64,000 nt of DNA, from NCBI GenBank assembly GCA_022835595.1, contig BQUP01000003.1:502629-566628 (forward strand), given 5' to 3'. The notes beneath the pieces are model-generated. The model worked only from the letters and a program-made list of their open reading frames with translations, was not told the DNA's origin and did no database searches. Source of the DNA: Cystobasidium ongulense (lineage: Eukaryota; Basidiomycota; Cystobasidiomycetes; Cystobasidiales; Cystobasidiaceae). The position numbers and the translations under genes are program-made. Shown here piece by piece: positions 16,746-19,113 of this stretch (the first letter of the stretch is position 1; the number at the start of each line of letters is the position of its first letter).

Positions 16746-17287
16746 AGAAGAAACGGTCCACTGCGTCATCATTACGGCTTTCCGTTCCAAACTTGTAGTT
16801 GGGAAGGATAGTTCACACCCTGTGTTCCAGTCAATTCCAAATCAAACGCATTACACTTTCACGTTAACGATTCCTCGAGCCTCACTTTCATCGGAAATGA
16901 AGTGAATTCCTATCCGCCTTCGATTTCTTTCTGCTGCGCATCTTCGGGTTGTCTTCTATATATCTTTCAACTGCCTACTAGGTGCCTCCTTTTCCTACTA
17001 TTTTCTGCATACAATACTACATCATAATACAGGGTTATGGGAGTCGGGGCAAGTTTTGGGTTATAGTCTATTATCGTGTAAATGCATAGCGACGCTCTTT
17101 CGCTGCAAATCACTTCAGCAAATAGACATCTCAGACACTGCGATACACTGCGATATCCAGCTATCGCAGTGTCTGATCGGCTTTGCCACCGAACTATTTG
17201 CTCGTTGTTGCGAATGAACTGCAAATTGCAGGCTTTGCTTCCTGCGAAGCTGAAGATCCTTGGAACTTATAGAAAGGCATCCGCGAA
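16746..17287. other. Intergenic region with a perfect 15-bp inverted repeat
   Basis: 542 bp between two + strand genes: the 3' untranslated region of the small peptide gene and the promoter of the phosphatase gene. It holds the hairpin-forming repeat listed separately at 17131-17176. Confidence 0.5.
17131..17176. repeat. Perfect inverted repeat, 15-bp arms
   Basis: The left arm TCAGACACTGCGATA (17131-17145) is exactly complementary to the right arm TATCGCAGTGTCTGA (17162-17176), with a 16-nt spacer. The spacer begins with a second, direct copy of CACTGCGATA. It lies 112 bp upstream of the phosphatase start codon. Confidence 0.9.
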
Positions 17288-19113
17288 ATGACGCTTATAC
17301 TCACTTTGGTTCGGCATGGCGAGGTAGGTTTTGGTGTCCTGCAATCTACAGTAGACAACGCCAGCTGATGATGCCATCGCGATGGACTCGCTTCGGGACA
17401 TACAGTCTACAGACAACCTCAAGGCACTATGGGCTGGTGAGTTTGGTCGTCCCCTTAATGCTTCTATACCGTACTGCAGCTCACCAACTATCCTTCATCA
17501 ATTGTCCAGGCCATCGCGACGCACCTCTGACAACGCATGGTGAGCAAGCTTCCCACGATACAAGTCGCACGAGTCAATGTCAAAACTCTCACTGATATCG
17601 AATGTTCATCTTCTCCGCTGTTATCACTCACAGGCATGAATCAAGCACGTCGACTAGGCAAATCCTTCGAGGATGTGTACATCTCGAAGATCTACGCGTC
17701 CGACCTGAAGCGTGCACACTGGACAGCCTTGCAAATAGCAACACAGAACAAGAGTCTTTTAAATCGTCTCCAGGGAGAACTCTCAGAAGGAGATGCGAAT
17801 TCTGCTACGCCAGCCGCTTCCAGACCGTCTTCCTCGCTCGAAGAGAATGGCACTTCCACACCTGATCGCTCCAGCGGCGAGCTCGACCAGGAAGAGATTG
17901 CCGAAACCTCTGCAGGACCCTCTTCATTGACTTCCACTGATAGAACCTCCTCAAGCGTGTCCACCTTTCCAAACTATACCGACGACTTCAGCTGTTCCTC
18001 TTCAGCGGCTGCTTCATCGCCGGTTCCTTCGCCAACTACCGCCACCGGTCGCACGACACCCACGTCGCACGAAGCGTTATTGCCCAAGACAGTCACCACA
18101 ACAAACAAACTCAGAGAACAGTACTTTGGTCTAGCAGAAGGCCAAAGTTGGAAGACTGGATTCGCGACTAGTGCCAATTCCTACCATAATCGTGGATACA
18201 AGTTTGAGCAGGGCGAGAGTCTGGAAGATGTGCACGAGCGTGCTCAGGAGATTGTACAGCGTTGTGTCGTACCCTGGCTTGTTAAGAGCGCTAAGAATAC
18301 CGAAGGAAAGAAAGAGCATATCGTTCTGGTGGCCCATGGCATTGTAAGCTACATAGACTACCGTCCCGTTCCCAGTGTTACTCTGCTGAATTCTGGTACC
18401 TGGTCTACAGATGATATCGGAGCTCCTGTATGCGCTTCATCGACTACAAGATCCGAGGGTGCAATGTAAGTATGCGCCAACCGCCGCATCTAAACCGTTG
18501 CTAACCACATATCTGTAGATGAGCGTCGGTCTGGCCATACGAATGTGCGTTCACGTCCATTCGCTATTCATTTTGCGCTCTTTGTTATCTAACAGATTAC
18601 CCTTTGCAGACTGGATGGACTCGTTTCGTCTTAACACTTCCTCAAAACTTCCACTCACCATCCTCTCCGCTTCCCGATCCTCCTCTCCCAGATATTCTTG
18701 CACCTGAGCTGCCTCCGCATTACCACGAGGTCCTGGCACCTCAACCTTTACCTCAAGTGACGATCAAGCAGACTCATGCCAACGTCACTACACATCTAGA
18801 CGGGTTGAAACGCACGAAAGGCGGTGTCGGTTCAGAACAATACGATGCTCGACAAAAGAGCTTGCGGGACTTCTTTAGCGGTGCATCCACTTCTGATAGC
18901 AGTGCGACAGATAATGAAAAGAAAGCAACAGAAAGCAACATCGGAACGAACGGCACACCGAAGTCGAGCAAGCCTGTACCGGATCCAAGACCTATCGATC
19001 TTACTGGCGATGACAAGGACGATGTCATGAAGACGAACGGGGAACATCAGAGACGTGGCGTAAGACTCACTAGTCCGACAAGTCCCAGTCCTAAGAAAAG
19101 CAGATTGAGCTGA
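17288..19113 (+). CDS. Histidine phosphatase (phosphoglycerate mutase-like) with PIP-box/SIM-like tail
   Basis: Exons: 17288-17323, 17406-17436, 17510-17539, 17634-18343, 18411-18465, 18519-18544, 18610-19113; 463 residues. The phosphatase fold is shown by LTLVRHGES at the N-terminus (catalytic His), GHRDAPLTTHG, YASDLKRAHWTA and the second catalytic His in VLVAHGIMISELL. A Ser/Thr/Pro-rich insert of about 100 residues splits the domain. After residue 300 the tail is disordered and holds QKSLRDFF (residues 378-385), which fits the PCNA-binding PIP box QxxLxxFF exactly, and PIDLTGDDKDD (424-434), a SUMO-interacting-like motif, ending in basic SPSPKKSRLS. The enzyme could act on sugar phosphates, nucleotides or proteins; the tail suggests a nuclear, PCNA-linked role (inference). 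Confidence 0.85.

Follow-up and report, generated by a model that had tools for sequence, protein, structure and literature searches.

A fungal histidine phosphatase whose low-complexity tail carries a canonical PIP-box sequence and a SUMO-interacting-like motif

A PCNA-binding part and a SUMO-interacting motif (SIM) occur together in one protein in Srs2 and Elg1, as they do in the protein described here, according to the parts of two papers that were available to us (PMC4030836, PMC5333041). In yeast, SUMO is attached to PCNA on K164 and, to a lesser degree, on K127, as stated in the available part of the first of these (PMC4030836). In Xenopus, yeast and human, AP endonuclease 2 (APE2) binds PCNA via a PIP box, as summarized in the available sections of a review (PMC9900424). 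Metabolic enzymes have also been associated with the clamp: PGAM1 (phosphoglycerate mutase), ENO1 and 6PGD have been reported with human PCNA, and as to motifs, the accessible portions of these reports name an APIM for ENO1 and a putative PIP-box for 6PGD (PMC9937922, PMC11640687). A search of the open-licence literature for a PIP box together with a histidine phosphatase or phosphoglycerate mutase returned, in the portions of text available, only reports of PGAM1 in human PCNA complexes, and a search of the same literature for phosphoglycerate mutase with a SUMO-interacting motif returned nothing related by title.

The gene described here lies in a window of 64,000 nucleotides, by which we mean the whole stretch of DNA that was analyzed, from the basidiomycete Cystobasidium ongulense (contig BQUP01000003.1 of assembly GCA_022835595.1). 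The source genome comprises 19.77 Mb over 19 contigs, and all genome-wide pattern counts given below cover both strands. The spliced model of the gene has six GT..AG introns, each of them 53-94 bases long, and its features are as follows.

17288..19113, + strand: histidine phosphatase gene; spliced model of 7 exons and 463 amino acids, with GT..AG introns and 0 internal stops
17288-17323, 17406-17436, 17510-17539, 17634-18343, 18411-18465, 18519-18544 and 18610-19113, + strand: exons 1-7
17288..17539, + strand: start of the catalytic domain in exons 1-3, with VRHGE (RHGE at residues 9-12) and GHRDAPLT; from the model and the PDB alignment
17634..18343, + strand: exon 4, with SDLKRAHWTA, a low-complexity insertion (residues about 73-190), LREQYFGLAEG and VAHG
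18610..18642, + strand: putative domain end, TGWTRFVLTLP, sharing its exon with the tail; read from an unscored alignment to 3e9c
18643..19110, + strand: low-complexity tail of 156 residues, disordered class by charge-hydropathy
18853..18876, + strand: QKSLRDFF, canonical PIP-box sequence, residues 378-385
18991..19023, + strand: PIDLTGDDKDD, SUMO-interacting-like motif, residues 424-434
19081..19104, + strand: SPSPKKSR, basic end, residues 454-461

A Pfam search of the spliced protein returned a single family, His_Phos_1 (PF00300), with an E value of 3.4e-31 and a score of 108.8 bits against a curated cut-off of 21.7. The catalytic motifs are found in RHGE and, further along the chain, in LKRAHWTA (residues 57-64), LREQYFGLAEG (192-202) and VAHG (265-268); we take these to supply the R-H-G motif, the second Arg, the Glu and the second His, respectively. 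The score above cut-off and the motifs place the protein among the branch-1 histidine phosphatases, in agreement with a first-pass annotation of this DNA that had called it a histidine phosphatase, and because all four motifs are there the enzyme is probably active. Among solved structures, the chains closest in sequence are those of CobC-type phosphatases and of zebrafish Zgc:56074 (3e9c), the latter presumably TIGAR. None of the 21 NCBIfam families listed scores above its cut-off; the top one, TIGR03162, reaches 76.1 bits against 162.9, and by this cut-off the protein is no alpha-ribazole phosphatase (CobC). When the genome was searched with the phosphatase domain we obtained four matches, three of which are the gene's own exons and the fourth a weak one (E 0.0175, contig C9), and no close paralog was seen in the genome by this search. 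The PF00300 family has 13 exon-level matches genome-wide, two of them in the phosphatase gene. Pattern matches in viral contig collections (8 and 20) and in prokaryotic genome contigs (40 and 141) yielded no confirmed relative, which says nothing on fungi, and an Rfam scan of the window gave no match at gathering score.

The last exon had previously been placed at 18610-19113, and exon 7 of the six-intron model coincides with it exactly. Its segment NTGWTRF aligns with NTG..RF of zebrafish Zgc:56074, although this segment alone scores -1.7 bits, and we read TGWTRFVLTLP at the exon start as the last strand of the catalytic domain. As the exon opens with the putative domain end, the tail and the end of the phosphatase would be encoded in one exon. 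No further intron was found within this exon by a rule that requires a donor, a branch point and an acceptor; the rule recovers four of the six modelled introns, its branch-point demand missing the other two. The G+C content at the three codon positions is 0.56/0.50/0.47 in the tail and 0.44/0.50/0.50 in the 3' flank; the difference is not clear, and composition therefore adds no support for translation of the tail.

Upstream of the gene there is a perfect 15-nt inverted repeat with a 16-nt spacer (window positions 17131-17176), which ends 111 bases before the ATG. It contains a tandem 10-nt repeat. The sequence CACTGCGATA occurs exactly 3 times in the window, each time at 17131-17176. This inverted repeat is a possible promoter element.

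The tail itself had been described as disordered, and it is indeed of low complexity and falls within the disordered class, a call that rests on the charge-hydropathy rule and composition only. Its sequence QKSLRDFF fits the PIP consensus, Q-x-x-[LIM]-x-x-aromatic-aromatic, and is exact at Q1, L4, F7 and F8; both the position at 18853-18876 and the exact fit that had been claimed for it hold in the spliced model. The first-pass annotation had also pointed to PIDLTGDDKDD, 39 residues later, as a SUMO-interacting-like core followed by a basic end, and both are where it put them. PIDLTGDDKDD fits [PILVM][ILVM]DLT with acidic neighbors, which we take to be the VIDLT class of SUMO-interacting motif, while the basic end, SPSPKKSR, could presumably serve as a CDK site overlapping a nuclear localization signal.

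Taken together, these features suggest to us a nuclear branch-1 histidine phosphatase of CobC/TIGAR-like fold that would dock on PCNA with the assistance of SUMO. We favor this reading tentatively and judge its probability to be somewhat below even. The basic end may bring the phosphatase into the nucleus, and the PIP box, borne on a flexible tail, could then dock it, with modest affinity, in the PCNA pocket. The SIM would add binding near a SUMO-modified protein, which might be PCNA modified away from K164 or some other repair protein, and the phosphatase, once docked on chromatin, would dephosphorylate either a small metabolite or a phosphoprotein. A nuclear, PCNA-docking phosphatase is in our opinion plausible on the motifs at hand.

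The same motifs could have arisen by chance in a fast-changing low-complexity tail; in this case the protein would be a cytosolic small-molecule phosphatase, acting on a sugar bisphosphate or a similar compound, and its tail would have no partner. How often the motifs occur bears directly on this question. At the DNA level, Q..(L/F)..FF has 403 matching sites in the genome and its backward control has 342, and because the pattern is this common a PIP box alone is unremarkable. The SIM pattern, I/V/M-D-(L/F)-T-x-acid-acid, is found at 13 sites in 19.8 Mb against 10 backward. Single matches are thus mostly noise, and either motif taken singly is weak evidence. Within the window the PIP pattern matches 3 times where 0.86 are expected, and 9 of 100 shuffles reach 3; the open frames around the two other matches are only 34 and 2 codons long. 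A PDB search with the PIP peptide gave 0 matches, and a DNA pattern for alternative codons of the peptide gave 0 sites. The enzyme also has a second long low-complexity segment, the insertion within its catalytic domain, and low-complexity nuclear tails favor both PIP and SIM sequences, two further points in favor of chance. Against chance stands the co-occurrence of the motifs: shuffling the 156-residue tail 400,000 times produced the strict PIP 70 times, the relaxed PIP 894 times and the SIM core 1,498 times, but in no case the relaxed PIP together with the SIM.

Additionally, we searched 1.5 kb to either side of every SIM-pattern site, on both strands, for a PIP-like box that shares its open frame. 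Such a box accompanies 2 of the 13 sites, and the only bearers of the pair are the phosphatase, in which PIP and SIM lie 47 codons apart, and a homologue of AP endonuclease 2 (L050/L069, contig C2 around 708576, minus strand), which was identified by Pfam and PDB match. In the tail of this homologue QRLLSNFF precedes IDLTLDESDED by 113 codons and QQTLATFF follows it by 60 codons. The scan reads single open frames over the 1.5 kb per side, and boxes in other exons escape it. Two strings near other SIM sites were excluded from the pair count: QPLLARFY (L051) lies in another frame, and a box-like string (L053) lies in another frame and is broken by a stop. The expected number of same-frame strict boxes for the 13 sites is 0.0125 over 141 nt, 0.044 over 500 nt and 0.18 over 2000 nt, these distances having been picked after the pair was seen. 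The scan used a looser box than the strict pattern behind the expected values; the strict pattern is satisfied by all three boxes, one in the phosphatase and two in the AP endonuclease 2 homologue. The pair is rarer than either motif and lends moderate support to docking; the support is only moderate because of the post hoc distances and the looser box, and because repair-type tails favor both motifs. That the one other frame with the pair among the 13 sites belongs to a homologue of a known PCNA client also argues against chance. Nevertheless, we regard chance motifs as nearly as likely as a phosphatase that docks on PCNA.

If the phosphatase does dock on PCNA, the strength of the contact can be estimated from the residues around the box. 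Flank charge moves PIP affinity over four orders of magnitude, and peptides with a canonical box are sometimes weak (34 uM for a UNG2 variant, 45 uM for FEN1, 3 uM for MSH6 and 80 nM for p21), according to the available part of Prestel et al. (PMC6881253). Over the box and 7 residues per side (22 residues) the net charge is -1 in the phosphatase, and +1 and +4 for the boxes of the AP endonuclease 2 homologue. The charge rule from that study (PMC6881253) predicts weak binding at a net charge of -1. The contact between phosphatase and PCNA, if binding occurs, should by this analogy be weak and regulated.

The residues of the box also bear on two other possible roles of the same string. Its FF core may bind a different partner: it could contact VAP at the ER in a phospho-FFAT-like manner (D-F-F-S) or act as a Mlh1-type MIP box (R-D-F-F). 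The string overlaps both consensuses at the aromatic pair, and the yeast phosphoglycerate-mutase-like protein Det1 reportedly has a role in sterol transport, which may be counted for a different partner. However, position 5 of the FFAT consensus is here occupied by G rather than A or C, the tract before the core is a mixture of R, K, D and E, and both alternatives leave unexplained a Q and an L at exact PIP spacing; we consider such a partner very unlikely. The box might also be a PIP-degron, a type of motif whose docking on PCNA loaded onto chromatin brings about destruction by CRL4-Cdt2 in S phase. Such degrons carry T-D as residues 5 and 6 and are basic at +4. The phosphatase shares the D at position 6, but has R in place of T at position 5 and, at +4 from the box, S in place of a basic residue. 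Downstream basic residues are required in a PIP-degron, as stated in the available part of one paper (PMC5333041). Destruction through the box thus seems to us the least credible of the roles considered here.

We examined the other side of the proposed contact in the same genome. One PCNA_N match and two PCNA_C matches were found genome-wide, all at a single locus (L066, contig C5:173300-176000, 1272-2051); its pieces could be aligned to PDB entries for PCNA, that of yeast among them, the first residues being outside the model. The stretches AMDNSHVAL, LMDIDSEQLGIPE (LGIPE, 126-130) and C-terminal FYLAPKI are kept, and we take these to be residues of the PCNA pocket. In the stretches checked, the pocket is conserved as judged from the translated gene.

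K164 is the main SUMO and ubiquitin acceptor of PCNA. The sole PCNA gene found has S at 164 (codon AGC) and G at 127, so that neither of the SUMO acceptors that a Srs2-type protein would read in yeast is present, while K168 is kept. With S at 164, a Srs2-type reading of SUMO-K164 in its yeast form cannot work here. The first-pass annotation had proposed recruitment to replication forks by such a SUMO-PCNA reading; the exact PIP box and the kept pocket stretches favor recruitment, whereas S164 and G127 weaken the Srs2-type part of the proposal. A comparison of 15 fungi found K164 in 15 of 15, restricted K127 to S. cerevisiae and C. glabrata, and described an insertion of >80 residues in the back loop for the PCNA of Cryptococcus neoformans alone, which also has T in place of K168, as far as the available part of that paper goes (PMC9225081). 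The serine read here at position 164 is outside the pattern of these 15 reviewed fungi. The back loop of the C. ongulense protein likewise carries an insertion, of about 107 residues, 35% of which are D/E, with three psi-K-x-E sites (VKKE, VKKE and VKDEPASDDEEE); K168 is kept here and is T in C. neoformans. No intron was found inside the insertion by the donor, branch-point and acceptor rule, which misses 2 of the 6 phosphatase introns.

With K164 and K127 both absent, SUMO on PCNA would need another site, for example in the Lys- and acid-rich back loop. It is conceivable that PIP and SIM together read a re-sited SUMO mark on this loop, whose psi-K-x-E sites fit the SUMO consensus, as a substitute for a K164 code that this fungus has lost, and that the phosphatase is a standing client of the clamp; we think this improbable. 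A SUMO-like gene, named by reading of its exons, is found in the genome, and SUMO binding by the tail therefore stays possible. The SIM might also work alone: the protein would then be a nuclear phosphatase recruited by reading SUMO on modified proteins of repair or transcription, with the PIP-like string an incidental feature. The presence of the SUMO-like gene, the fit of PIDLT followed by acidic residues to the VIDLT class, and the small number of SIM-pattern sites in a genome of this size are consistent with such a role, but the pattern is barely above its backward control and a perfect PIP would be left unexplained. We therefore consider a SIM working alone unlikely.

Several other genes of PCNA-related processes were looked for in the genome. 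Rad18 was not detected genome-wide, since TIGR00599 has 10 matches and 0 above cut-off, and an intron-split gene could escape this search. Seven of the 10 matches (L074, L075, L076, L090, L092, L093 and L095), those with a readable RING context, look like other RING proteins; one at C8:712748 is probably Rad5, given a HIRAN match 2 kb away; another (L094) has no RING by pattern; and the tenth is on contig C12. The Y-family polymerase family (IMS) has 10 matches in the genome. A UvrD/Srs2-like helicase (L091, contig C5:48000-52500) carries VVIDLDAEEDD in one frame; no Q..[LIMV]..aromatic-aromatic box was found in six frames of its 4.5 kb, which perhaps hold a partial gene.

If docking of the phosphatase on PCNA is true, then a family associated mainly with small metabolites would have a member at work on the replication clamp. 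What this member dephosphorylates, whether a nucleotide, a sugar phosphate or a phosphoprotein, would become a concrete question. The genome is also a natural test of PCNA clients in the absence of K164, the main PCNA modification site.

Compared with known systems, the protein shares with branch-1 histidine phosphatases (CobC, TIGAR-like; PF00300) the RHG, second Arg, Glu and His motifs as well as their domain order, and differs from them in an insertion of about 118 low-complexity residues and in the 156-residue tail with its PIP and SIM. It differs from Srs2 and Elg1 in that its box is a canonical PIP and its SIM is not at the extreme end, and its host PCNA, unlike that of yeast as described in the available text, offers S and G at the two SUMO acceptor positions. 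With the human PGAM1, ENO1 and 6PGD reports, as far as their accessible portions go, it has in common the notion that an enzyme of metabolism, in one case a phosphoglycerate mutase, is bound to PCNA. The AP endonuclease 2 homologue of the same genome shares the presence of PIP and SIM in its tail, but has a second PIP and an unrelated catalytic domain. The layout of phosphatase, PIP and SIM is a new combination of known parts.
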